From assembly GCF_026247885.1 (NCBI RefSeq), contig NZ_CP110921.1, positions 868,001 through 932,000 of the forward strand: a stretch of 64,000 bases of DNA, read 5' to 3'. This DNA comes from Methylococcus mesophilus. GTDB lineage: Bacteria > Pseudomonadota > Gammaproteobacteria > Methylococcales > Methylococcaceae. The notes under the pieces are model-generated. The model searched no databases. It was given only the letters and a program-made list of their open reading frames with translations, and was not told the origin of the DNA. Below, in pieces: positions 40,322 through 55,192 of this stretch. Numbering within the stretch: position 1 is the first letter of the stretch; each line of letters starts with the position of its first letter. The translations under genes and the position numbers were made by a program.

Positions 40322-41350
40322 TTAGTCCGAAACGGACATAGAGTCTGCGGTTAAAAATGTGTCTGCAAACTGATCTGGCGTCAGGTAAGCCAACGAACTG
40401 TGGGGGCGTTGCTCATTGTATTCCCGACGCCACTCCTCAATGACTTGGCGAGCATGGCGCATCGAGACGAACCAATGCTCGTTCAGGCATTCATCCCGGA
40501 ATTTGCCGTTGAAGCTTTCGATGTAGGCGTTCTGCTGTGGCTTACCTGGCTGGATGAAGCTCAAGCACAGTCCTTGGCTATCGGCCCATTCATCCAAAGC
40601 CTTGCCGGCAAACTCGGGGCCGTTGTCGACGGTGACTGATTTGGGCAATCCGCGGATCTCTGCCAGCCGTTGCAGCACACCGACTACACGTCTGCCAGGC
40701 AGCGAAGTATCGACTTCGATGGCCAAGCACTGCTTCGTGAAGTCATCGACGATATTCAGGCACCGCAGCCGCCGACCATCGGCCAAACCGTCCGAAACAT
40801 AGTCCATAGACCAACTCTCGTTAGGCGCCGATGGCGCGACCTTGATTTGGCGCTCCACGCCGGCAATGCGCTTCCGCTTTCGTTTGCGGACCATCAGGCC
40901 GGCCTCGTGATACACGCGATAGGTGCGCTTTCGGTTGATTTCCCAACCCTCTCGGCAAAGTAGCACGTGCAGCCGGCGATACCCATAGCGCCGCTTCTGC
41001 GCTGCCAATTCGCACAGTCGTTCCTTGAGCTCCTGGTCTGCTGGCCGCTTAGCTTCGTAGCGATACAGCGACCGAGAAATACCGATCAGCCCACAAGCCC
41101 GCGTGACGCCCATCTGGTGCTTTGTCATCAGATGGGAGACCGCCACCCTCTTGGCTTGTGGGCTTACCACTTTCGGCCTACAACCTCTTTCAACGCAGCA
41201 TTGTCCAGCATCGCCTCCGCCAGCAGGCGCTTGAGCCGGGCATTCTCGGTCTCCAGTGCCTTGAGCCGCTGCGCATCCGACACTGTCAGGCCGCCGTATT
41301 TCGCTTTCCAGTTGTAGTACGTCGCCTCGCTGAGCCCGTGCTTGCGGCAC
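40322..41350 (-). CDS. IS407-type transposase orfB (catalytic part)
   Basis: An open frame of 342 codons, of which the part from about 41165 downward is the conserved OrfB (KRVAVSHLMTKHQMGVTRAC); the upstream part overlaps orfA. DDE residues lie in WSMDYVSDGL, TVDNGPEF and NAYIESFNGKFRDECL. The active transposase is expected to be an OrfAB fusion made by a -1 frameshift near the end of orfA, as in other IS3 elements. It is intact. Confidence 0.9.
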   Translation of the reverse strand: MPQARAQRGDVLQLESEIRRPDSVGCAAAQGTGDRECPAQAPAGGGDAGQCCVERGCRPKVVSPQAKRVAVSHLMTKHQMGVTRACGLIGISRSLYRYEAKRPADQELKERLCELAAQKRRYGYRRLHVLLCREGWEINRKRTYRVYHEAGLMVRKRKRKRIAGVERQIKVAPSAPNESWSMDYVSDGLADGRRLRCLNIVDDFTKQCLAIEVDTSLPGRRVVGVLQRLAEIRGLPKSVTVDNGPEFAGKALDEWADSQGLCLSFIQPGKPQQNAYIESFNGKFRDECLNEHWFVSMRHARQVIEEWRREYNEQRPHSSLAYLTPDQFADTFLTADSMSVSD

Positions 41351-41427
41351 AGCTCCGCTACTTTTAGGCCGGCTTCGGCTTCCTTCAGGATGCCAATGAT
41401 CTGTTCTTCGGTGAAACGCTTCTTCAT
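41164..41427 (-). CDS. IS407-type transposase orfA (DNA-binding part)
   Basis: 87 residues starting MKKRFTEEQIIGILKEAEAG with a helix-turn-helix (VAELCRKHGLSEATYYNWK) and a leucine zipper-like end (LKALETENARLKRLLAEAML). It supplies end recognition to the OrfAB transposase and on its own often acts as a regulator. Confidence 0.93.
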   Translation of the reverse strand: MKKRFTEEQIIGILKEAEAGLKVAELCRKHGLSEATYYNWKAKYGGLTVSDAQRLKALETENARLKRLLAEAMLDNAALKEVVGRKW

Positions 41428-41526
41428 GCTGCCTCCTATCGAGGCAGACTCTACATCACGACCGGACTAATCTCGGGGAGCAGGTCATAGTAACTTTGAT
41501 CTTGCCCCCGAATTTCGGACATCCGT

Positions 41527-42372
41527 TTAAGGGACACGGGATAGCTCGAACTCTTCCGGGCTGAGATAGCCCAAGGTCGAGTGGAGCCGGTTTCGATTGT
41601 AGTAAACCTCGATGTAGTCGAACACGTGCGCCTTGGCCTCTTCACGTGTAGCGAAGTGCTCCCCATGGATCGCCTCGACCTTCAGACTGTGGTTCCAGCT
41701 TTCCATCGCCGCGTTGTCGTAGCAGTTACCCTTGGCGCTTATGCTGGCGATCAGGCCGTGCGCGTCGAGTAGGGCGCGATGTTCACGTGAGCAGTACTGG
41801 CTGCCGCGGTCGGTGTGCACGATCACGCCGCGCGGCCGTTGCCGGCGGAACTGTGCCATGCGTAAGGCATCGCAGACCAGCGTGGCCGTCATACGTTCAG
41901 ACATCGACCAGCCCACCACCTTGCGCGAGAACAAGTCCAGCACGGCTGCCAGGTACAACCGGCCTTCGCCAGTGTCGATACAGGTGATGTCGCCCACCCA
42001 CACTTGATCGGACCGCCCGGCCGTGAAGTCCTGTTGCAGCAGGTCTTCTGCTACCGGCAGCGTGTGCTTGGAGTTCGTCGTCGCCTTGAACTGACGCGCC
42101 GCCTTTGCGCGCAAGCCCTGGCGCCGCAGGCTTTCTGCCACCTGCCGACGCCCCGCTCCAAGCCGCTTGGACAACCGTGGCGCGCCTGCACGGCTGCGTT
42201 CAGCCGCGAAGACGGCCTTGACCTTGATATCCAGCTCCGCTCGCCGTTGCACCCGCGCCGATGGCTTGCGGCCCCGCCACGCGTAGTACCCGCTCGGCGA
42301 TACCTTCAGCAGCCTGCACATCAGGCGCACCGCAAATTCATCCTCATGCGCCTTCATCGTCGCGTACTTCAC
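41527..42372 (-). CDS. IS3-family transposase orfB
   Basis: 281 residues with an HTH_21-type N-terminus (EFAVRLMCRLLKVSPSGYYA) and an rve integrase domain: DQVWVGDITCIDT, IVHTDRGSQYCS, and the Glu in CYDNAAMESWNHSLKVE. The frame is intact and overlaps orfA by four bases. Confidence 0.93.
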   Translation of the reverse strand: MKYATMKAHEDEFAVRLMCRLLKVSPSGYYAWRGRKPSARVQRRAELDIKVKAVFAAERSRAGAPRLSKRLGAGRRQVAESLRRQGLRAKAARQFKATTNSKHTLPVAEDLLQQDFTAGRSDQVWVGDITCIDTGEGRLYLAAVLDLFSRKVVGWSMSERMTATLVCDALRMAQFRRQRPRGVIVHTDRGSQYCSREHRALLDAHGLIASISAKGNCYDNAAMESWNHSLKVEAIHGEHFATREEAKAHVFDYIEVYYNRNRLHSTLGYLSPEEFELSRVP

Positions 42373-42674
42373 TTCGGCTGTTTCGCGAAGTACGCCGCCG
42401 CCTTTTTTAGGAAAGCGTTCTCCTCCTCCAATCGCGCCACCTCACGCTTGAGCCGTGCGTGCTCGGACTCTATCAGCCGGCGCGCCTCCGCGTCCTGGCC
42501 TTGCTGTTGGGCCTTGCCACGCCATGCGTAGATCTGCGCCGGCTGCAGGCCCAGATCGCGCGCCGCCACCGACACGCCGTCCTTCACGGCCCGAAGCAAT
42601 GCCTGTTGCTTGAACTCCGCGCTGTACCGCGTGCGCTCCGTCTTCGCCTCTGCCTTCTTCGTCATCTCTCTCAT
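42369..42674 (-). CDS. IS3-family transposase orfA
   Basis: 101 residues with an HTH region (YSAEFKQQALLRAVKDGVSV, ARDLGLQPAQIYAWR) and a terminal coiled coil (LIESEHARLKREVARLEEEN). Start codons at 42674 and 42665 are both possible. It pairs with the orfB above. Confidence 0.92.
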   Translation of the reverse strand: MREMTKKAEAKTERTRYSAEFKQQALLRAVKDGVSVAARDLGLQPAQIYAWRGKAQQQGQDAEARRLIESEHARLKREVARLEEENAFLKKAAAYFAKQPK

Positions 42675-43615: not shown

Positions 43616-43870
43616 TCAAGCAGCGAACCCGCAATATTCGACGACTGCGGAAGGGGCTGGAACAGGTTCTCCGTCTACTTTGAGACCGTCCAGGTGAAAA
43701 AGGATAGCCTCACGGATGTTCTGGCCGGCTTCCTGAAGAGTGGCGCCGATAGCGCGCGGGGTCTCTTCGGCCGGTGAGGAGGTATCCCTGCATTCCAGGA
43801 TGCCCCTCAAACCGGCATAAAGTGACGCTGCTGTCACCTTCTTGGCAACTTGACAGGAACACAGTTCCAT
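43616..43870 (-). CDS. HicB-like antitoxin fragment
   Basis: 84 residues. The C-terminal half (GATLQEAGQNIREAILFHLD, then GLKVDGEPVPAPSAVVEY) has the HicB pattern IREAIxFHLxGLxxDGxxxPxP. The N-terminal half does not show the usual HicB strand pair ending DLPGC, so the gene may be frameshifted or truncated. No HicA toxin gene is adjacent. It is convergent with nothing and lies head to head with the ATP-grasp gene. Confidence 0.5.
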   Translation of the reverse strand: MELCSCQVAKKVTAASLYAGLRGILECRDTSSPAEETPRAIGATLQEAGQNIREAILFHLDGLKVDGEPVPAPSAVVEYCGFAA

Positions 43871-43999
43871 CTTACCAAAATGATGCGATGGAACTTCAAC
43901 AAATCGTCCATTTTGGTGCGTGGTCGCGGTCAGTTCTGTTTAGAGCAACGAAACGGCGCTCACCCTACGGTGTGGCCTACACCTTGCTTTTTTCTGGAC

Positions 44000-45427
44000 A
44001 TGACTCCCAAAGACGCTCAACCCTTCTACAACGAAATGTACGACGACCATGGAACGGTCCGTGACATCTACCTTGCGTACAAGCAGTGGCTCAATGGCCT
44101 TGGAGCAGGCGCGCTGGAGCGCAAACGCGCCGAAGCTGAGCTGCTCTTCCGTCGAATGGGTATTACATTTACCGTCTACGGGGAAGCCGATGGCGCCGAG
44201 CGTCTGATTCCGTTTGATATCGTGCCGCGTATTTTCGGCGCCGAGGAGTGGCGCCGTCTTGAGTTGGGTCTAAAACAACGTGTACGAGCGCTGAACGCTT
44301 TCCTTAACGACATCTATCACACCCAAGAAATTCTCAAGGCAGGAATCATCGACGCAAAGCAGGTTCTTGGCAATGCAATGTACCGCCCAGAGATGCAAGG
44401 AGTAGATCTGCCTAACCAAGTCTATGCGCAAATCGCCGGCATTGATTTGGTACGGGTGGATAAGAATGACTTTTATGTACTGGAAGACAACCTGCGAACG
44501 CCTTCCGGGGTTTCATACATGCTGGAAAACCGCAGGACCATGATGCGGCTATTTCCCGAGCTCTTCGCGCTGCACACAGTCGAACCGGTCGAGCATTATC
44601 CGCAGATGCTGTTGGATACTTTACGTGAGTCCGCCCCAGCCTATGTTGACAATCCAGCGATCGTAGTACTTACACCGGGAGCCTATAACAGCGCCTACTT
44701 TGAGCACGCCTTCCTCGCCAGCCAGATGGGAGTGGAATTAGTTGAAGGACAGGATCTCTTCGTCGACCAAAGTAAGGTCTATATGCACACGACAGAGGGG
44801 CCCCAACAAGTACATGTGATCTACCGGCGGGTCGACGACGATTTTCTTGACCCGCTGGCCTTTCGGGCGGATTCTATGCTGGGCGTGCCGGGGTTGTTCG
44901 AGGCCTATCGAAGTGGCCATGTCGCGTTAGCTACCGGAGTAGGGACCGGCGTGGCAGACGACAAATCGACTTATTCGTTCGTCCCTGAAATGATCCGATT
45001 CTATCTCGGAGAGTCGCCGCTTCTGTCAAATGTCCCTACTTGGCGATTGAGCGAAACTGACGATCTCAAATACGTGTTGGGACACCTGCCCGAACTGGTA
45101 GTGAAGGAAGTACAGGGTTCCGGTGGCTATGGCATGCTTATCGGCCCTACCAGCAGCAAAGCCGAGATCGAAGCTTATCGAGAGCGCATTCTGGCCCGTC
45201 CCGAACACTTTATTGCCCAGCCAACGCTAGCGCTGTCCGCTTGTCCAACTCTGGTAGAGGCAGGCGTTGCTCCCCGGCACGTGGATCTGCGCCCATTCGT
45301 TTTATCCGGCAAGGAGATCAGGCTGGTTCCGGGTGGGCTCACTCGGGTTGCGCTAAAGGAAGGGTCCTTAGTCGTCAACTCCTCGCAAGGAGGCGGTACT
45401 AAGGATACCTGGATAACAGGGGTCTAA
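44000..45427 (+). CDS. Circularly permuted ATP-grasp protein (DUF404/DUF407 type) of the Anbu cluster
   Basis: 475 residues from the ATG at 44000 (MTPKDAQPFYNEMYDDHGTV). The frame is open to 43850, but the extension is not conserved in character. It has the permuted ATP-grasp core: FDIVPRIF, GIDLVRVDKNDFYVLEDNLR with TPSGVSYML, and at the end VVKEVQGSGGYGMLIGP and RPFVLSGKEIRLVPGGLTRV. Such enzymes are expected to form peptide-like bonds with ATP; the substrate is unknown. First gene of a set that regularly includes alpha-E, transglutaminase and Anbu genes. It ends three bases before the alpha-E gene. Confidence 0.9.
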   Translation: MTPKDAQPFYNEMYDDHGTVRDIYLAYKQWLNGLGAGALERKRAEAELLFRRMGITFTVYGEADGAERLIPFDIVPRIFGAEEWRRLELGLKQRVRALNAFLNDIYHTQEILKAGIIDAKQVLGNAMYRPEMQGVDLPNQVYAQIAGIDLVRVDKNDFYVLEDNLRTPSGVSYMLENRRTMMRLFPELFALHTVEPVEHYPQMLLDTLRESAPAYVDNPAIVVLTPGAYNSAYFEHAFLASQMGVELVEGQDLFVDQSKVYMHTTEGPQQVHVIYRRVDDDFLDPLAFRADSMLGVPGLFEAYRSGHVALATGVGTGVADDKSTYSFVPEMIRFYLGESPLLSNVPTWRLSETDDLKYVLGHLPELVVKEVQGSGGYGMLIGPTSSKAEIEAYRERILARPEHFIAQPTLALSACPTLVEAGVAPRHVDLRPFVLSGKEIRLVPGGLTRVALKEGSLVVNSSQGGGTKDTWITGV

Positions 45428-45430
45428 ATC

Positions 45431-46408
45431 ATGCTTTCCCGAACCGCCGAAAACCTCTTTTGGATGGCACGCCATATCGAACGAGCTGAGAACACCGCTC
45501 GTATCCTGGATGTGGCGAAACTTTCGTCCCTGGTGCCGTTGGACATGGACGGGAGCGAGGCCTATCTATGGTATGCGCCCCTGAACATTACAGGCTGCGC
45601 TGCCAGTTACGAGGTCCAGTACGGGCTTGCCCGGTCTGACGCCGTCACGCGCTACATGGCACTTGACCCGGACAATCCATCGAGCATTTATTGCTGCCTA
45701 CGCCAGGCCCGTGAAAACGCGCGCTCCGTGCGTGGCGCCATCACCGCGGAGATGTGGGAGGTAATCAACGCTACCTGGTTAGAAGTAGGCCGACTCTCCA
45801 AGGGGATGCGCGAAGAGCAATATGGAGATTTCTTCGAGTGGGTCAAAGAACGTTCGCATTTGTTCCGCGGCGTAACGCTCGGTACCATCATTAAGGATAT
45901 TGCCCTCAATTTCATCCGCCTCGGTACCTTTCTTGAGCGAGCAGACAATACAGCGAGGATCCTCGATGTAAAGTACCATATCCTTCTGCCCGGTGTGGCA
46001 GATGTCCGAGGAGCGGCCGATTACTACCAATGGGGAGCCTTGTTAAAGTCTGTCAGTGCGTTTGAAGCTTACCGGAAGATTTACCGAAACGTCATCGCGC
46101 CACTGCGGGTAGCCGAGCTTTTCATTCTGCGTGACGACATGCCGCGCTCTCTCCATGCCTGCCTAAATGAGGTCGAAACCGCGTTGATTCAGATCAACGG
46201 ACTTTCCGGTCGCGAAGCCCGTCGGCTCGCAGGCGAAATCCATGCTGATCTGCATTTCGGTCGAATAGAGGATGTGTTTACACGCGGTTTACATGAATAT
46301 TTGACGGATTTCCTTAGGCGTACGGACTTGCTCGGACAGGAGATCCGCAATTCTTACATGTCCCGACAAAGCCCAGGGGCGATGGACAAACTACGCCACG
46401 TCGCTTGA
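45431..46408 (+). CDS. Alpha-E domain protein (DUF403)
   Basis: 325 residues, nearly all helical, starting MLSRTAENLFWMARHIERAE, the hallmark of the family, with FLERADNTARILDVKYHI in the second half. It has no known activity and is found almost always next to the permuted ATP-grasp gene. It begins three bases after that gene and ends 21 bases before the Anbu gene. Confidence 0.94.
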   Translation: MLSRTAENLFWMARHIERAENTARILDVAKLSSLVPLDMDGSEAYLWYAPLNITGCAASYEVQYGLARSDAVTRYMALDPDNPSSIYCCLRQARENARSVRGAITAEMWEVINATWLEVGRLSKGMREEQYGDFFEWVKERSHLFRGVTLGTIIKDIALNFIRLGTFLERADNTARILDVKYHILLPGVADVRGAADYYQWGALLKSVSAFEAYRKIYRNVIAPLRVAELFILRDDMPRSLHACLNEVETALIQINGLSGREARRLAGEIHADLHFGRIEDVFTRGLHEYLTDFLRRTDLLGQEIRNSYMSRQSPGAMDKLRHVA

Positions 46409-46429
46409 TACCCCGATTTCACGACCACC

Positions 46430-47188
46430 ATGACTTACTGTTTAGCTCTTAAACTGAACGCCGGGATGGTGTTTGCCTCGGATTCCCGTACCAACGCCGG
46501 CGTCGACCACATTGCCATGTTTAAGAAGATGCGGACCTTTATCAATCGCGGTGACCGCACCATCGTAATCCTAAGCTCCGGCAATTTATCGATCACGCAG
46601 AACGCCATCAACCTGTTGGAGCAACAGGGGCGGCATCCTGAAAATCGGAATATCTGGAATGTGGAATCGATGTTCGACGTCGCGCAGCTTTTGGGGGAAT
46701 GCTTGCGGTCAGTGCGCCAGCACGATGGCGCCTTTCTGGCACAGAGCAACGTCGACGCCAGTGCCAATTTCATTGTCGGAGGCCAGATTCGCGGCGAACC
46801 TATGCGTTTGTGCTTGGTTTACGCCGAGGGCAACTTTATCGAGGCCGGCGAGGAAACACCATTTTTCCAGATTGGAGAAACGAAGTACGGTAAGCCGATT
46901 CTCGACCGGGTCATCAAGCCCGACACGCCACTGGACGAGGCGATTAAGTGTGTCTTGGTGTCGTTCGACTCGACCATGCGCAGTAATTTGTCGGTCGGCT
47001 TACCCATCGATCTTGCATGCTACAGCGAGTCACATTTCGATTTGAATTTGGTGCAGCACATCACCGACGACGACCCGTATTTTTCGCAGATAAGTCGGCG
47101 CTGGAGCGAAGGACTGCGCGGCGTATTCGCATCGCTTCCCAGTCCAGACTGGCTGAGCGAACCGCTACCGCGCGACTTTCCCCTTTAA
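46430..47188 (+). CDS. Anbu, proteasome-like Ntn hydrolase
   Basis: 252 residues starting MTYCLALKLNAGMVFASDSR. After Met removal Thr2 would be the N-terminal nucleophile of the proteasome/HslV fold; the SDSRTN and GDRTIVILSSGN segments match the family. Anbu (ancestral beta-subunit) forms open-ring or helical assemblies in other bacteria and is linked genetically to ATP-grasp, alpha-E and transglutaminase genes, as here. No ATPase unfoldase accompanies it. The substrate and true activity are not established. Confidence 0.92.
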   Translation: MTYCLALKLNAGMVFASDSRTNAGVDHIAMFKKMRTFINRGDRTIVILSSGNLSITQNAINLLEQQGRHPENRNIWNVESMFDVAQLLGECLRSVRQHDGAFLAQSNVDASANFIVGGQIRGEPMRLCLVYAEGNFIEAGEETPFFQIGETKYGKPILDRVIKPDTPLDEAIKCVLVSFDSTMRSNLSVGLPIDLACYSESHFDLNLVQHITDDDPYFSQISRRWSEGLRGVFASLPSPDWLSEPLPRDFPL

Positions 47189-47298
47189 TTCATCTCGTAC
47201 GTTCGCTAGCTAGACCGGGAAGACGTCTTGACAATAACGGAAGACAAAGATTTATCCGCATTTCTTGCCCCGGTAATCGAGCACCACCAAGGACCGTC

Positions 47299-50200
47299 AT
47301 GACCATCCGTGTTGCCTTACATCATCAATCCCGTTATCGCTTCGACCGGCCGGTAGTAGCTGCGCCGCATGAAATACGCCTACGACCTGCTGCCCATACC
47401 CGAACCCCCATTTCGGGCTACTCGCTACGAATTAAGCCAAAGCAGCACTTCTTACATTGGCAGCAGGATGCCTATGGCAACTTCGTGGCGCGCCTCACCT
47501 TTCCGCAACCTACTCGCGAGATAGAGATAACCGTTGAACTGGTAGCGGACATGACGGTCATCAATCCATTCGACTTTTTCGTCGAAGAATGGGCAGAGCA
47601 CTATCCCTTTGCTTACCCGGAACTGTTGACTTCAGAGCTGGCGCCTTTTCTAGAGGCCGATGCCGCTGGACCGTTGACCCAAGCGTGGCTCAATGAATTC
47701 CGACGAACAATTCCTTCCAAGATTACCACCACTAACCTTCTGGTAATGCTGAATACAAATGTTCAGCAAGCGGTCTCGTACTTAATTCGACTGGAGCCGG
47801 GCGTCCAGACCTGTGAAGAAACCTTGTCCAAACGGTCCGGCTCTTGTCGCGACAGCGCGTGGCTGCTCGTACAGCTGCTCCGACATCTCGGTATCGCTGC
47901 ACGGTTCGTTTCCGGCTACCTCATCCAACTTGAGCCAGACGAGAAGCCGCTGGATGGACCGCCCGGACCAGAAGCAGATTTCACTGATCTCCATGCTTGG
48001 TGCGAAGCCTATATCCCCGGCGCCGGCTGGATTGGCGTTGACGCAACCTCGGGCTTGCTGGCCGGGGAAGGTCACATCCCACTGGCAGTCTCGGCGTTGC
48101 CGACATCCGCAGCGCCAGTAATCGGAATGACCAGCGTTTGCGAGGCTCGACTGGACGTATCCATGTCAGTTACCCGCATCCATGAGGATCCACGCGTAAC
48201 CAAGCCCTATACGGACATACAATGGGAGGAAATCCGCGCGCTGGGGAAACAAGTCGACCAGGAACTGGAAGCTGGCGATGTCCGTCTTACTCAAGGTGGA
48301 GAGCCGACTTTCGTGTCCGTCGATGATATGGACGCCGCGGAGTGGAATATCACCGCCTTAGGTGAAAATAAATGGCTTCTTGCAAATGATCTGGTCCGTC
48401 GTCTACAGCATCGTTTTGCCACCGGTAGCGTACTCCACGTCGGCCAGGGCAAATGGTATCCGGGAGAACCGTTGCCACGTTGGGCGCTGAATGTATTCTG
48501 GCGAAGCGACGGGGTTCCAGTCTGGCGGAATGCTGCGTTACTGGTGCAGGACCCCAAAGCCACACAGAACGAAACTACCGCTGAAACCTTCGGACAGTTG
48601 ATAGCCAAAAAATTAGGTCTAAATCCCGGATACTTGATGCCCGCCTATGAGGATCCTTGGTTGGCTTTGGATCAGGAAAGCCGCCTTCCCGCAAATATCG
48701 ATCCGCTACAGTCCGATCTCGATGACATAGAGGTTCGCTCAATTTTGGCGAGGCAGTTGCGGAAGGGTTTGGCTTCTGTCGTAGGGTTTATTCTCCCCCT
48801 CAAGGCGCTAGACCGGCCGAGTTCGCCCTGTTGGAAATCGAGCCGCTGGCCGCTCAAGCACGAGCGCCTGTACCTACAGCCCGGCGACTCGCCTATGGGA
48901 CTCCGGTTACCTCTGGCTAGTTTGCCTTGGGTTGCTCCCGAAGAATTCGAGTTGGAGTTGCCGCCCGACCCGTTCGAGCCCCGTAGCGACTTGCCTGAAT
49001 ACGCTGTCGCCGCGGCCGTTGGCGCAATGGAAGACATTGATGAATCACCGACAGCTCGGGAAGTCATTCATACCGCACTGGCACTGCAGGTGCGTGACGG
49101 CCTGTTACATGTGTTCTTGCCACCGACGACCCGGTTGGAACATTGGATGGCATTGCTCGCCGCTGTCGAGTCCTGCGCCGAGGAACTAAAGCAAAATATC
49201 CGTCTGGAGGGTTATGCTCCACCGCGAGATCCGCGTCTGCAATTACTCTCAGTGACGCCTGATCCCGGGGTTATCGAGGTCAACATCCATCCTTCAGCCG
49301 ACTGGGAAACACTGGAGCAACGGACCCGGGAACTTTACGAAGAGGCTCGGTTAGCGCGCCTGACGACTGAAAAGTTCATGCTCGACGGCCGCCATACGGG
49401 CACGGGAGGGGGTAATCACGTCACGTTGGGTGGAACCCGGCCAGCGGACAGTCCGTTTCTGCGGAGGCCGGATCTGCTCCAAAGCTTGATAATCTATTGG
49501 CAGCAGCATCCTGCGCTTTCCTATCTCTTCTCGGGGCAGTTCATCGGACCGACCAGTCAAGCACCGCGGGTGGATGAAGCGCGTGACGACAATCTTTACG
49601 AACTTGAAATTGCCTTCCAGCAACTGGCAACCCAACTAACCCCGGGGGAGGAAAGCTCCAGACCGTGGCTGATCGACCGGTTGCTGCGCAATTTGCTTAT
49701 CGACATGACCGGTAACACCCATCGTGCGGAGTTCTGCATCGATAAGCTGTATTCGCCGGATACCGCTGCAGGGCGCTTAGGTCTAGTCGAGCTCCGCGCT
49801 TTCGAAATGCCGCCGCACTACCGAATGAGCCTGGTCCAGGCTCTGTTGCTGCGGGCGCTCGTGGCTCGGTTCTGGCGTAAACCTTATCACGGCAAAATGG
49901 TTTACTGGGACACTGCTCTGCACGACCGGTTCATGTTACCTCACATGATCGAAACCGACCTTCGCGATATCATCCGCGACCTAAGGCAGTCGGGTTATAA
50001 CTTCGACTATGCCTGGTTCGCGCCTTTCCTTGAATTTCGCTTTCCGCACTACGGCACAGTCGTCTACGATGGTGTACAACTCGAGCTACGACAGGCAATC
50101 GAACCCTGGCATGTCCTTGGCGAGGAAGTCAGCGCGGGCGGCACGGCGCGTTATGTAGATTCCTCCGTGGAACGTCTGCAGGTCAAAGTCAGGGGCATGA

Positions 50201-50586
50201 CAGGCGGCCGCCATAGGGTTCTGTGTAACGGCCGGGCATTACCCTTGCATGCAACCGGGGTACCAGGTGAATTCGTCGCCGGGTTACGCTTTAAAGCGTG
50301 GGCGCCGCCTTCTGCACTGCATCCCGCCATCGGTATTCAGGCACCCCTGGTGATCGATCTATACGACGGATGGAACGGCCGTGCTATAGGTGGATGCACG
50401 TATCACGTCAGTCATCCTGGGGGCCGCAACTATGACAGTTTCCCGGTCAATGCCAATGAGGCCGAGGCACGCCGCCGCGCCCGCTTCTGGGATCACGGTC
50501 ACACCCCAGGGCCGATGCGCGTGCGCGACGAACCGACCAACCCCCGCTTCCCGATGACTTTGGACCTTCGCTGGGAAAACCCTTAA
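47299..50586 (+). CDS. Transglutaminase-like protein with DUF2126 domain
   Basis: 1,095 residues from the ATG at 47299, with AAGGA five bases upstream; the longer open frame begins inside the Anbu gene and is not used. An N-terminal transglutaminase domain has Cys183 ([11 protein letters not shown]), His232 ([10 protein letters not shown]) and Asp248 (GVDATSG), followed by the large DUF2126 domain (about 340-1095; [26 protein letters not shown]). It is probably a cysteine peptidase or amide-forming enzyme acting with ATP-grasp, alpha-E and Anbu. Its TAA stop is formed by the TTAA target of the IS5 insertion that follows. Confidence 0.93.
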
Positions 50587-51759
50587 GGAACTTCTGAACA
50601 AATCCAGCGGGTGTAAGCTATTCCTGCCCAGAAGCCCTGAACGCGGAGCCCCCATGAAACAGACCACCTTCGCCTCCTTAGCCTTTGACCGGAAGAAGAA
50701 GCAGACCCGGCGCGAGAAGTTCCTGGCCGAGATGGAGCAGGCGGTGCCGTGGCCGGAACTGCTGGCGGTGATCGAACCGCATTACCCGAAAGCGGGTCGG
50801 CGCGGTCGTCAACCGTACCCGTTGGCGACGATGCTCAGGCTTTACTTCCTCCAGCAATGGTATGCCTTGTCCGACCCGGGCCTGGAAGATGCCCTGTACG
50901 AGATCGAATCGATGCGGCGTTCTGCGGGTCTGGAGTTGGCCGATGACGCGCTGCCGGATGAAACCACGCTCCTCAACTTCCGGCGCCTGCTGGAGCGTCA
51001 CGAGCTGACGGCGAAGTTGATGAACGCCATCAATGACGTGCTGGAAGCGCGAGGGCTGCTGCTCAAGGGCGGCACGATGGTGGATGCGACGATCATCCAC
51101 GCCGCGCCATCGACGAAGAACAAAGCCAAGACCCGCGATCCCGAGATGCATCAGACCAAGAAGGGCAATCAGTGGTTCTTCGGCATGAAGGTGCATGTGG
51201 GAGCGGATGTTCACACCGGTGTCGCCCACACGGTCTCGGTCACACCGGCCCACGCCTCGGACATCAGCCAGTTGCCGAACCTGCTGCGCGAGGACGACCG
51301 GCTGATCCTCGGCGATGCCGGCTACGTCAACGACACCTATAAGCGCGCGGCGCGGCAGGCCGGGGTCGTGTGGGGCGTGGCCCTGAAGGCCCGTCCGAAA
51401 CGGCGGCTGGGGTCGGCACAGAAACGCTGCAATCGAAAGCTGTCCTCGCTGCGCAGCCGCGTCGAGCACCTCTTTCGGGTGATGAAGCGGCAGTTCGGCT
51501 ACACCAAGACGCGCTACCGGGGCCTGGCCAAGAACGCCGCCCAGGTGTTTACCCTGATAGGGTTGACCAATCTCTACCTGAAGCGGTACGCATTGATGAC
51601 CTGACGGGCGAGGTGCGTCCGGAATCCGCCCCGACGGGCGCATCCGGGCGGGAATCGCCACGGTAAGTAAGGAATTTCGGTACCCTTCACCCATTTTCAA
51701 AGCCTGATTATCAGCAGGATGTGCTTTTGTCGCCCAAATCGGGTTTGTTCAGAGGTTCC
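50587..51759 (+). mobile_element. IS5-family insertion sequence, copy 2 (1,173 bp)
   Basis: Inverted repeats GGAACTTCTGAACAAATCC (left) and GGAACCTCTGAACAAACCC (right, reversed), with a perfect target duplication TTAA (50583-50586 and 51760-51763). It is inserted between the DUF2126 stop codon and the next gene. Relative to copy 1 it has scattered substitutions. Confidence 0.93.
50654..51604 (+). CDS. IS5-family transposase (copy 2)
   Basis: 316 residues, intact, differing from copy 1 at about ten positions (for example Ser for Phe in MRRSAGLEL and Leu for Ile in DETTLLNF). The DDE residues are unchanged. It is transcribed in the same direction as the Anbu cluster, so read-through into the following gene is possible. 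Confidence 0.95.
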   Translation: MKQTTFASLAFDRKKKQTRREKFLAEMEQAVPWPELLAVIEPHYPKAGRRGRQPYPLATMLRLYFLQQWYALSDPGLEDALYEIESMRRSAGLELADDALPDETTLLNFRRLLERHELTAKLMNAINDVLEARGLLLKGGTMVDATIIHAAPSTKNKAKTRDPEMHQTKKGNQWFFGMKVHVGADVHTGVAHTVSVTPAHASDISQLPNLLREDDRLILGDAGYVNDTYKRAARQAGVVWGVALKARPKRRLGSAQKRCNRKLSSLRSRVEHLFRVMKRQFGYTKTRYRGLAKNAAQVFTLIGLTNLYLKRYALMT

Positions 51760-51775
51760 TTAACGAGGACGATGC

Positions 51776-53038
51776 ATGCTGTGCTCCACTACTCAGCTAC
51801 GCCATGGCGACAAGATCAATTCAGAATTCTTCGAGGAATATCTGATCCGATTGTTGGAAGAAAGGGACCGCTCCGGGCTTACCGAGCTGATTGGCGGCAT
51901 CGAGGCGATGTTAATCAGCGTCGAGCCAGGAAATTCGGTCGAGTATATTGCTGAGCTGGCGCTGATGACGCCCTACAATTATTTGGTGACGCTCGACAGC
52001 GAAAAACATATGACGCACGTGTTGCGTATCGATATGCATTCGCCGGACATCCTTCTACGAGAACCCAAGACAGCGGATTATATGGACATATTCCGCGGCC
52101 TGAATGACCTCTATCCTGTTGGCGCCAAGCGTCCGCATAGCCGTTACCTGGGCGAAATTCTATCGTGTGCCGACCGACACCAGGTTGTGGCCTTGCAGCA
52201 GCAACGGGAATTTCGGTTTTTTCAGGTCGGACAGCTCGCGGAGCTGGATCTTCCATTGAATGTTAGCCTATCTAAGCCATCTCCCTATACGCAGAACGTG
52301 TTGGGTTACATGGAGCGCAAAGCCAACGAAATACGCGTTTACCATCACGGCGATTGCATCATTCTCGCTGCTGCCCAGCGCGCTAACGACCGCGGCAAGG
52401 AAATGCAGGAGCGCTTAGGGATAAAGGACCTCCTCTGCCCCGTTGATCACCTTGCAACTCGGGTTTACAGCCAAAATCGGGAACCGGCAATCCTAGAATA
52501 TCTAGCATTGTCGAGCTACTACTACTGGGGTAGCTACAATATCAAGGACCAAAATTCGTCCACCAACGTCACCAAGAATATTCGGGGGGTATCCGAATCA
52601 GTGAGTCCAGCCAAAGTATTTACTGCCGCCAACCATCCATACTGTCTCAATCACATAGATAAATTACCCAGTCCAACGGAGACATTTGTGCGCAACTACG
52701 GACCGCGCCTGCACCACATCGCTGTGGAGGTGAAGGATGGCCAGCAGGATGGAAAGGAGTATATCGATATTGTTGTCGATGCCATCTCAGGACAGGGTAA
52801 GGGCTTCCTGCTGGAAACTATCGGCTCGCGTAGCGCGGGTTTAAAGCAAATTTTCTCATCAGCGTCGGATTTTTCTTCCTTGATCATTGAATACGTCCAG
52901 CGCTTCGGCGATTTTCAGGGATTCTTTACCAAGGATAATGTCGCCAAATTAACCTACGCTGCAGGCCAGGAAGAGGGCGTGAGGGAGAGTCTTATTCAAG
53001 AGGCAGAATGCGGAAACCGCGCCATCCGTGGCCTGTAG
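51776..53038 (+). CDS. VOC-superfamily protein resembling 4-hydroxyphenylpyruvate dioxygenase
   Basis: 420 residues with GAGG seven bases before the ATG. The C-terminal half follows the pattern of 4-hydroxyphenylpyruvate dioxygenase: CPVDHLATRV (His225), LPSPTETFVRNYGPRLHHIA (His314) and SSLIIEYVQRFGDFQGFF (Glu372), matching the 2-His-1-Glu iron site and the RxGxFQGF ending. The N-terminal half (about 1-200) is not recognised. Spacing between the second His and the Glu (58 residues) is shorter than in the dioxygenase, so the substrate is likely different. Before the IS5 insertion it would have started 12 bases after the DUF2126 stop, as a fifth gene of the Anbu cluster. Confidence 0.7.
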   Translation: MLCSTTQLRHGDKINSEFFEEYLIRLLEERDRSGLTELIGGIEAMLISVEPGNSVEYIAELALMTPYNYLVTLDSEKHMTHVLRIDMHSPDILLREPKTADYMDIFRGLNDLYPVGAKRPHSRYLGEILSCADRHQVVALQQQREFRFFQVGQLAELDLPLNVSLSKPSPYTQNVLGYMERKANEIRVYHHGDCIILAAAQRANDRGKEMQERLGIKDLLCPVDHLATRVYSQNREPAILEYLALSSYYYWGSYNIKDQNSSTNVTKNIRGVSESVSPAKVFTAANHPYCLNHIDKLPSPTETFVRNYGPRLHHIAVEVKDGQQDGKEYIDIVVDAISGQGKGFLLETIGSRSAGLKQIFSSASDFSSLIIEYVQRFGDFQGFFTKDNVAKLTYAAGQEEGVRESLIQEAECGNRAIRGL

Positions 53039-53593: not shown

Positions 53594-54622
53594 TTAGTCC
53601 GAAACGGACATAGAGTCTGCGGTTAAAAATGTGTCTGCAAACTGATCTGGCGTCAGGTAAGCCAACGAACTGTGGGGGCGTTGCTCATTGTATTCCCGAC
53701 GCCACTCCTCAATGACTTGGCGAGCATGGCGCATCGAGACGAACCAATGCTCGTTCAGGCATTCATCCCGGAATTTGCCGTTGAAGCTTTCGATGTAGGC
53801 GTTCTGCTGTGGCTTACCTGGCTGGATGAAGCTCAAGCACAGTCCTTGGCTATCGGCCCATTCATCCAAAGCCTTGCCGGCAAACTCGGGGCCGTTGTCG
53901 ACGGTGACTGATTTGGGCAATCCGCGGATCTCTGCCAGCCGTTGCAGCACACCGACTACACGTCTGCCAGGCAGCGAAGTATCGACTTCGATGGCCAAGC
54001 ACTGCTTCGTGAAGTCATCGACGATATTCAGGCACCGCAGCCGCCGACCATCGGCCAAACCGTCCGAAACATAGTCCATAGACCAACTCTCGTTAGGCGC
54101 CGATGGCGCGACCTTGATTTGGCGCTCCACGCCGGCAATGCGCTTCCGCTTTCGTTTGCGGACCATCAGGCCGGCCTCGTGATACACGCGATAGGTGCGC
54201 TTTCGGTTGATTTCCCAACCCTCTCGGCAAAGTAGCACGTGCAGCCGGCGATACCCATAGCGCCGCTTCTGCGCTGCCAATTCGCACAGTCGTTCCTTGA
54301 GCTCCTGGTCTACTGGCCGCTTAGCTTCGTAGCGATACAGCGACCGAGAAATACCGATCAGCCCACAAGCCCGCGTGACGCCCATCTGGTGCTTTGTCAT
54401 CAGATGGGAGACCGCCACCCTCTTGGCTTGTGGGCTTACCACTTTCGGCCTACAACCTCTTTCAACGCAGCATTGTCCAGCATCGCCTCCGCCAGCAGGC
54501 GCTTGAGCCGGGCATTCTCGGTCTCCAGTGCCTTGAGCCGCTGCGCATCCGACACTGTCAGGCCGCCGTATTTCGCTTTCCAGTTGTAGTACGTCGCCTC
54601 GCTGAGCCCGTGCTTGCGGCAC
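53594..54622 (-). CDS. IS407-type transposase orfB (copy 2)
   Basis: 342 codons, as in copy 1 and intact. The catalytic motifs WSMDYVSDGL, TVDNGPEF and NAYIESFNGKFRDECL are unchanged. It is expected to be expressed as OrfAB by frameshifting. Confidence 0.9.
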   Translation of the reverse strand: MPQARAQRGDVLQLESEIRRPDSVGCAAAQGTGDRECPAQAPAGGGDAGQCCVERGCRPKVVSPQAKRVAVSHLMTKHQMGVTRACGLIGISRSLYRYEAKRPVDQELKERLCELAAQKRRYGYRRLHVLLCREGWEINRKRTYRVYHEAGLMVRKRKRKRIAGVERQIKVAPSAPNESWSMDYVSDGLADGRRLRCLNIVDDFTKQCLAIEVDTSLPGRRVVGVLQRLAEIRGLPKSVTVDNGPEFAGKALDEWADSQGLCLSFIQPGKPQQNAYIESFNGKFRDECLNEHWFVSMRHARQVIEEWRREYNEQRPHSSLAYLTPDQFADTFLTADSMSVSD

Positions 54623-54699
54623 AGCTCCGCTACTTTTAGGCCGGCTTCGGCTTCCTTCAGGATGCCAATGATCTGTTCTTCGGTGAAACGCTTCTTCAT
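54436..54699 (-). CDS. IS407-type transposase orfA (copy 2)
   Basis: 87 residues, identical to orfA of copy 1 in the translated sequence. It provides the DNA-binding part of the transposase. Confidence 0.93.
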   Translation of the reverse strand: MKKRFTEEQIIGILKEAEAGLKVAELCRKHGLSEATYYNWKAKYGGLTVSDAQRLKALETENARLKRLLAEAMLDNAALKEVVGRKW

Positions 54700-54759
54700 G
54701 CTGCCTCCTATCGAGGCAGACTCTACATCACGACCGGACTAATCTCGGGGAGCAGGTCA

Positions 54760-55192
54760 TCGTAGCGATACAGCGACCGAGAAATACCGATCAGCCCACA
54801 AGCCCGCGTGACGCCCATCTGGTGCTTTGTCATCAGATGGGAGACCGCCACCCTCTTGGCTTGTGGGCTTACCACTTTCGGCCTACAACCTCTTTCAACG
54901 CAGCATTGTCCAGCATCGCCTCCGCCAGCAGGCGCTTGAGCCGGGCATTCTCGGTCTCCAGTGCCTTGAGCCGCTGCGCATCCGACACTGTCAGGCCGCC
55001 GTATTTCGCTTTCCAGTTGTAGTACGTCGCCTCGCTGAGCCCGTGCTTGCGGCACAGCTCCGCTACTTTTAGGCCGGCTTCGGCTTCCTTCAGGATGCCA
55101 ATGATCTGTTCTTCGGTGAAACGCTTCTTCATGCTGCCTCCTATCGAGGCAGACTCTACATCACGACCGGACTAATCTCGGGGAGCAGGTCA
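54760..55192 (-). mobile_element. IS407-type element, partial copy 3
   Basis: 433 bases with the true right end (CTCGGGGAGCAGGTCA at 55177-55192) but no left end. It begins abruptly inside orfB at a CGTAGCGATACAGCG stretch that directly follows copy 2. It keeps a whole orfA and only the first part of orfB, which stops after GISRSLYRYD through the joint sequence. Confidence 0.92.
54869..55132 (-). CDS. IS407-type transposase orfA (partial copy 3)
   Basis: A complete 87-residue orfA identical to the other two copies. Without orfB it cannot transpose, but the protein could bind the element's ends and modulate the other copies. Confidence 0.9.
   Translation of the reverse strand: MKKRFTEEQIIGILKEAEAGLKVAELCRKHGLSEATYYNWKAKYGGLTVSDAQRLKALETENARLKRLLAEAMLDNAALKEVVGRKW

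Follow-up and report, generated by a model that had tools for sequence, protein, structure and literature searches.

We analyzed a stretch of 64,000 nucleotides from Methylococcus mesophilus (contig NZ_CP110921.1, positions 868,001 to 932,000; hereafter the window), which carries five clustered genes on its + strand. Four of them encode the ATP-grasp, alpha-E, Anbu and transglutaminase/DUF2126 proteins of the Anbu operon; the fifth encodes a protein linked to these four and adopting, according to sequence and structure model together, a two-domain fold of the type found in 4-hydroxyphenylpyruvate dioxygenase (HPPD) and HMS. This protein is most likely an Fe(II)- and O2-dependent alpha-keto-acid oxygenase that would feed or clear a 2-oxo acid for a system that would make and cut amide bonds under nitrogen limitation; metal, O2, substrate and role are what we infer here. 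That the fifth gene is a component of one lineage of Anbu operons, with the whole oxygenase mechanism proposed below, seems to us evenly poised between right and wrong. For Anbu, a relative of the proteasome, a fifth enzyme that should use iron, O2 and a 2-oxo acid narrows the chemistry to be considered.

Linkage of the fifth gene to Anbu operons

The initial annotation had assigned the fifth gene to the cluster from a reconstructed ancestral gene order. A scan of a species-level genome collection yielded 280 encoding stretches, of which we kept the best 80, so that close relatives weigh most. The neighborhoods of these 80 loci support the assignment: a cluster gene was found within 5 kb of the fifth gene at 67 loci and within 300 bp on the same strand at 51 (both counts include short transglutaminase frames), and the opposite picture, homologues of the gene at 51776 that never stand beside Anbu or DUF2126 genes, did not appear. 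The reconstructed order itself occurs intact, with all five genes consecutive on one strand and no insert (ATPgrasp-alphaE-Anbu-DUF2126-X, where X is the fifth gene), at 16 of the 80 loci, which rules out a false reconstruction. The DUF2126 and fifth genes are separated by 16 bp at locus L062 and by 22 bp at L047, the latter from outside the 80.

Altogether, 30 gene-order strings were listed; one consists of the fifth gene by itself, and contig ends are all that sets some of the others apart. Besides the order given above, they include ATPgrasp-alphaE-TG-X-Anbu (TG, transglutaminase), ATPgrasp-alphaE-Anbu-X, and X-DUF2126 beside a divergent ATP-grasp set; eight Methylophilus-type loci adjoin a divergent set with a larger ATP-grasp. 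Clustering of the genes at the 80 loci retrieved DUF2126/transglutaminase at 63, ATP-grasp with alpha-E at 60 and Anbu at 44, followed by the next family at 12. These counts rule out a chance neighbor. That the genes have remained neighbors despite so many rearrangements speaks for a shared function. The likeness of distance matrices between the fifth gene and its partners (Pearson 0.64 to 0.83) was not used, since it came without a control.

A search covered 101 genomes, that of the window included, and detected the fifth gene in 33 of them (partial in G013, in two broken pieces in G032). Alpha-E was present in 31 and Anbu in 32 of these carriers, compared to 29 and 28 of the 68 non-carriers (Fisher values 2.8e-7 and 1.4e-8, which ignore common descent); the exceptions are G030 (78% complete), lacking alpha-E only, and G032, lacking both. 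Wider regions were viewed for 20 of the 33 carriers, chosen to include both linked and unlinked cases, and among them the order ATPgrasp-alphaE-X-DUF2126 was also seen. Among 398 genomes sampled across the phylum, the fifth gene occurs in 7, all of which belong to the 212 with alpha-E. The core system is thus common, and the fifth gene is only rarely added to it. Judged by title, the carriers among the best 80 of 280 stretches belong to Methylococcales, Methylophilaceae, relatives of Gallionella and Sideroxydans, Sulfuriferula, Halothiobacillus, one Zetaproteobacterium, and others.

Some loci hold additional genes of the same families. Two different Anbu genes, one before ATP-grasp and one after alpha-E, are present in single clusters at L057, L061, L064, L085, and L047; the two types could form mixed particles. 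Several loci (L095, L097, L092, L133, and others) encode a further ATP-grasp protein of larger size (about 850 residues) on the strand opposite to the adjacent oxygenase gene or cluster; in most of them it is accompanied by a full-length DUF2126 protein and a short transglutaminase. The window's genome (4.34 Mb, one contig) contains a second Anbu cluster (L191; G000:C1:1307600-1311100), in which Anbu is divergent from ATP-grasp and alpha-E and which lacks the fifth gene. In four genomes of the same genus (G002-G005), a single Anbu and a single alpha-E were found per genome, and no oxygenase gene. A phage or plasmid origin was rejected, since a search of viral contigs and plasmids returned no relative; so was a known defense system, since none of the five proteins matched PADLOC.

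Fold and candidate metal site of the fifth protein

Searches of Pfam, NCBIfam, PHROGs, PADLOC and PDB with the fifth protein gave no significant match, and a PDB sequence search with the family profile was likewise negative; hits to DnaA, YbgF and a cyclase/phosphodiesterase among the PDB sequences were dropped as chance. It represents an HPPD-fold family without a fitting model in the libraries searched. The predicted structure is HPPD-like, with two tandem domains of paired beta-alpha-beta-beta-beta units as in HPPD and HMS, and in the model the candidate His-His-Glu triad sits on those strands that carry the iron ligands in VOC oxygenases. The VOC-type fold foreseen in the initial annotation is supported, no other fold having appeared, as is an invariant His-His-Glu set: H225, R229, K280, H313, H314, Q358, and E372 are invariant in 60/60 family members. 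Solved DUF1338 entries were not among the 50 structure-comparison matches listed.

Matches below significance, obtained with the same 60 members, point in this direction. In NCBIfam, 7 members matched 4HPPD, 7 matched a VOC family model, and one each matched HpaD and methylmalonyl-CoA epimerase, VOC families accounting for four of the eight retrieved; in the members viewed individually, the VOC-model matches surround the Glu and the second His (residues 299-342, 305-325, and 353-393). Pfam returned Glyoxalase_4 in 13 and YecM in 7 members, beside four non-VOC families. As a control, 40 alpha-E proteins gave no VOC model (40 versus 60 proteins). The HPPD equivalog TIGR01263 was matched by 7 members with a best E value of 0.0086, and the protein of L130 reached 12.4 bits compared to a cut-off of 277, which does not make the family an HPPD by this model. 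Nor do the 60 members match the DUF1338 model, PF07063 being absent among the six families listed at E values up to 5.

We also compared the family profile with HPPD sequences. Using 10 HPPDs, H225, H314, and E372 aligned with the segments IDHLTHNV, IQHIAL, and FFEIIQRKGN, which we take to be the places of the HPPD iron ligands. The C-terminal part, cut after the first HPPD result had been seen, gave P 0.0078 with a score of 25.6 over 135 columns, and 0/60 shuffles were as good.

A number of results weaken the assignment. The alignment with 10 HPPDs is itself weak (P 0.024, 1/150 shuffles as good), comparison of the whole protein with 40 HPPDs gave P 0.11 with 18/120 shuffles as good and shifted the best local match into the other domain, and an alignment with the unrelated Anbu scored 23.1 over 29 columns, next to the 25.6 for HPPD. 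The profile comparison with HGLS was not significant (P 0.4), and neither was that with short DUF1338 proteins (12/150 shuffles as good); for the C-terminal part, 27 and 4 of 60 shuffles, respectively, were as good. The five AlphaFold models differ (predicted local distance difference test score, pLDDT, 78 to 54), with residues 286-311, directly before H313, under 50. An HPPD assignment by sequence alone is therefore not robust, given the 18/120 shuffles; this evidence is suggestive only, and the claim for the fold leans on the structure model. A DUF1338 relationship by profile was rejected as not significant, the best match to 10 short DUF1338 proteins having an E value of 0.0092.

The residues around the first His bear on the substrate. 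HglS holds its metal by His70, His226, and Glu294, and its Arg74 binds the distal carboxylate of 2-oxoadipate, the R74A variant being inactive (PMC7286885). The spacing of H225 and R229 equals that of His70 and Arg74. This H-x3-R motif was present in 60/60 family members, in 10/10 long and 10/10 short DUF1338 proteins, and in 0/40 HPPDs. The best HGLS profile alignment also pairs these H and R residues with those of the family, but the alignment is not significant, and the likeness is one of motif only. Because the motif is shared with DUF1338 and not with HPPD, it provides a lead toward a 2-oxo acid with a second carboxylate rather than an aromatic one. By analogy to HglS, the invariant Arg229 would hold this second carboxylate and thereby favor a 2-oxo dicarboxylic acid. 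The aromatic product initially considered thus finds no support.

Promoter and make-up of the cluster in the window

A conserved sigma-54-type promoter precedes the cluster. We found a -24/-12 site scoring at least 12 within 200 bp of the ATP-grasp gene in 43/45 clusters, compared to 1.8% of local shuffles and 47/637 other genes in the same loci, and NtrC-like palindromes scoring at least 9.5 in 22/45 clusters, compared to 1.9% of shuffles. Both consensus sequences and their weights were home-made, the cut-offs were set after a first look, and the loci are related; the sigma-54 count excludes ATP-grasp frames longer than 1,900 bp, frames with less than 200 bp upstream, and six in which the anchor motif was missing. 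Such sites are not special to carriers, since three clusters without the fifth gene also have sigma-54-like sites (scores 12.8 to 13.3) before ATP-grasp. The sites fit the published control of Anbu operons by nitrogen limitation: the Pseudomonas putida operon PP_2685-2688 is reported to be induced under nitrogen limitation and to be controlled by NtrB/NtrC (PMC7801951), and the transglutaminase cluster I35_5080-83 of Burkholderia cenocepacia is sigma-54- and NtrC-dependent (PMC5491218). Alpha-E and ATP-grasp domains have also been reported to correlate with urea genes in marine metagenomes (PMC3597751).

Features of the five-gene cluster and the insertion element within it (window coordinates)
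Feature	Position	Strand	Remarks
Sigma-54-like promoter TGGCCTACACCTTGCT	43973..43988	+	Upstream of cluster; home-made score 12.5 of 15.1
Circularly permuted ATP-grasp ligase	44000..45427	+	Pfam CP_ATPgrasp_2, E 4.6e-164
Alpha-E protein	45431..46408	+	Pfam PF04168, E 1.6e-97
Anbu, with candidate catalytic Thr, Asp, Lys	46430..47188	+	Solved chains, E 9.1e-88 to 9.7e-71
Transglutaminase + DUF2126 (putative amidoligase)	47299..50586	+	Pfam Bact_transglu_N, Transglut_core, DUF2126 (E 0)
IS5-family insertion element, not part of the system	50587..51759	+	1,173 bp; between fourth and fifth gene
HPPD/HMS-fold VOC-superfamily protein	51776..53038	+	Candidate metal site H225, H313/H314, E372

The four Anbu-operon families named in the initial annotation are all present and adjoin each other, as Pfam matches and, for Anbu, the comparison with solved chains demonstrate. 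The ATP-grasp open frame begins at 43850; a survey of start codons points to 44000 or 44036 as the likely start, and the DUF2126 gene probably starts with the ATG at 47299. The frame at 46430-47188 is narrowly under the Pfam Proteasome cut-off (21.7 versus 22.4 bits). We identify it as Anbu because of its matches to solved Anbu chains: five distinct sequences were matched, of which three bear Anbu or designed Anbu in their titles and the other two are labeled "Peptidase", and 5LOX is named as Anbu in PMC8665760. The candidate catalytic Thr/Asp/Lys residues listed for Anbu in PMC6376114 have counterparts in the window protein, namely the N-terminal Thr, Asp17, and Lys32/33, as placed by eye.

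The element separating the fourth and fifth genes encodes a transposase (NF033581, E 5.8e-98), is flanked by TTAA on both sides, and has terminal repeats that agree at 17/24 bases. The closest carrier, a Methylococcus sp. (G001; locus L054 on a 7,354-base contig) whose fifth protein is 94% identical over 406 residues, has the same junction without the insert. Its fifth gene is intact, with 407 codons (L054, 5690-7046), and comparison with the window gene gave a ratio of nonsynonymous to synonymous changes (dN/dS) of 0.071 over 406 codons, indicative of purifying selection. This speaks against a gene decaying behind the insertion element, the value pooling changes before and after the jump. Together with this element (50587-51759), others at window 40322-42674 and 53594-55055 ring the cluster, including, by eye, two near-identical integrase-type copies at 40322 and 53594, a shortened copy at 54723, and a further pair of transposase frames at 41527-42674.

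The length of 420 residues and the strand given for the fifth gene in the initial annotation are correct, though its final 43 bp recur at 84-91% at two further sites in the genome, and the tmRNA gene is 43 bp away from one of these (L003). Because of these matches, the C-terminal tail (about the last 13 residues) is foreign; the protein of G001 ends at residue 407, and those of 81-82% identical relatives at about 403-412. By eye, the bases that follow these 43 bp (segment 52996-53170 of the window) resemble a decayed tmRNA-side fragment, though an Rfam search matched none there. It may be the scar of an element formerly using ssrA as its site.

Proposed role, alternatives and known systems

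We propose the following mechanism. Nitrogen limitation would activate the operon through NtrC and sigma-54. Amide bonds would be formed by DUF2126 and by the ATP-grasp/alpha-E pair, and would be exchanged or cut by Anbu and the transglutaminase domain. With Fe(II) and O2 bound, the fifth protein would decarboxylate and hydroxylate a 2-oxo acid, as HPPD, HMS, and HglS do; the resulting hydroxy-acid unit would then be joined by the ligases, or, alternatively, the fifth protein would dispose of a carbon skeleton released by the system. A tentative extension, which we think rather doubtful, is that the Anbu operons of methylotrophs and iron/sulfur oxidizers hold an unrecognized family of Fe(II)/O2 alpha-keto-acid oxygenases whose product, a hydroxy acid perhaps derived from a 2-oxo dicarboxylic acid, enters a peptide or metabolite of nitrogen limitation that ATP-grasp, alpha-E, and DUF2126 build and Anbu trims. 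If true, Anbu would be a processing enzyme of a biosynthetic route and not a protein-degrading machine. A system producing a ribosomally synthesized and post-translationally modified peptide from its own precursor was rejected, as no cross-taxon precursor-like group occurs among the 12 widest-shared groups of small frames listed (20-95 residues); the groups near the clusters consist, by eye, of an rpoZ-like frame and single-taxon short groups probably overlapping other genes.

Several observations count against a joint function and against nitrogen control as proposed here. The presence of the fifth gene in only 7 of 212 alpha-E genomes implies that the core system works without it. In 6 of the 20 wider regions it stands alone within 19 kb (in one of these genomes, G075, ATP-grasp and alpha-E are on another contig), and no cluster gene is near it at L118, L130, and L132, with about 10 kb on both sides; the remainder of the 13 unlinked loci among the 80 are L069, with flanks of 4.5 and 10 kb, and nine with less than 1.5 kb on one side. 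In G001 (87% complete, 210 contigs), only about the last 50 DUF2126 codons remain upstream, out of frame, so that the fifth gene can persist without its own DUF2126 neighbor; the sole Anbu (46% identical) and alpha-E found there are encoded on a different contig, and their likeness is to the second cluster in the genome of the window rather than to the five-gene cluster. This raises the question whether the G001 enzyme works with the second-type Anbu cluster there. The window itself has no good NtrC-like site, and for the P. putida Anbu gene PP_2685 the first strain column in PMC7801951 gives 1.12, compared to 11 to 15 for its three neighbors.

The intact gene behind the DUF2126 remnant and the loci away from the cluster would suit a passenger with an unrelated job, kept by shared descent and a shared promoter. 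We judge this quite improbable: the gene remains beside the cluster in many orders and on both strands, the next commonest neighbor family reaches only 12 loci compared to 60 to 63, and an Anbu match exists somewhere in every carrier genome except G032 (32 genomes). A non-oxygenase role within the same system is unlikely too, if less so. VOC folds serve many reactions, and the weak matches to methylmalonyl-CoA epimerase and YecM would agree with an isomerase, epimerase or hydrolase using another metal, or with a metal-dependent binding protein. Somewhat better, though still on the improbable side, fares a purely catabolic reading, in which nitrogen is recovered as amino acids or ammonia set free by Anbu and the transglutaminase, a 2-oxo-acid oxygenase burns the leftover acid, and nothing is synthesized. 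HPPD is catabolic, and the sigma-54 sites described here suit such a disposal of carbon skeletons. HglS is catabolic as well (PMC7286885), and the published nitrogen-limitation control (PMC7801951, PMC5491218) is equally compatible; yet the cluster contains two kinds of putative amide-forming enzyme, its ATP-grasp type frees phosphate from ATP, and Anbu showed no detected peptidase activity (PMC6376114). We retain an oxygenase serving amide chemistry as the preferred reading. It offers a new handle on the Anbu system, with O2 uptake, CO2 and 18O label as read-outs, and the occurrence of the gene in named methylotroph strains, among them Methylobacillus and Methylophilus with homologues 62-65% identical, makes a deletion test feasible.

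Anbu is reported to form a split ring, to have shown no peptidase activity on standard substrates, and to share its operon with amide-chemistry enzymes (PMC8665760, PMC6376114, PMC5666114). The four-gene operon and a possible role in peptide synthesis or tagging are already published (PMC5666114, PMC6376114), and PMC5666114 credits the idea of a peptide-synthesis system to Iyer et al. 2009. In word searches, "dioxygenase" occurred 0 times in PMC5666114, as did "oxygenase", "dioxygenase", and "fifth gene" in PMC6376114; among the literature matches listed, none joined an oxygenase, VOC or HPPD-like gene with Anbu, and older Anbu accounts may mention one.

Compared to known enzymes, the fifth protein is 12 to 17% identical to HPPD/HMS among the rows listed and far below the TIGR01263 cut-off, and it has Arg four residues after the first His, where HPPD has Asn. 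All 60 fifth-gene proteins share this Arg at +4 with HglS/DUF1338, in which, however, 156 residues separate the two His instead of 89 and which match PF07063, unlike the fifth protein. The window cluster agrees with the published Anbu operon (PMC6376114, PMC5666114) in its four families and in the candidate Thr/Asp/Lys of Anbu, and its sigma-54-type promoter agrees with the NtrC control published for P. putida and B. cenocepacia. The HPPD-fold fifth gene is the feature that distinguishes the cluster described here from that operon.

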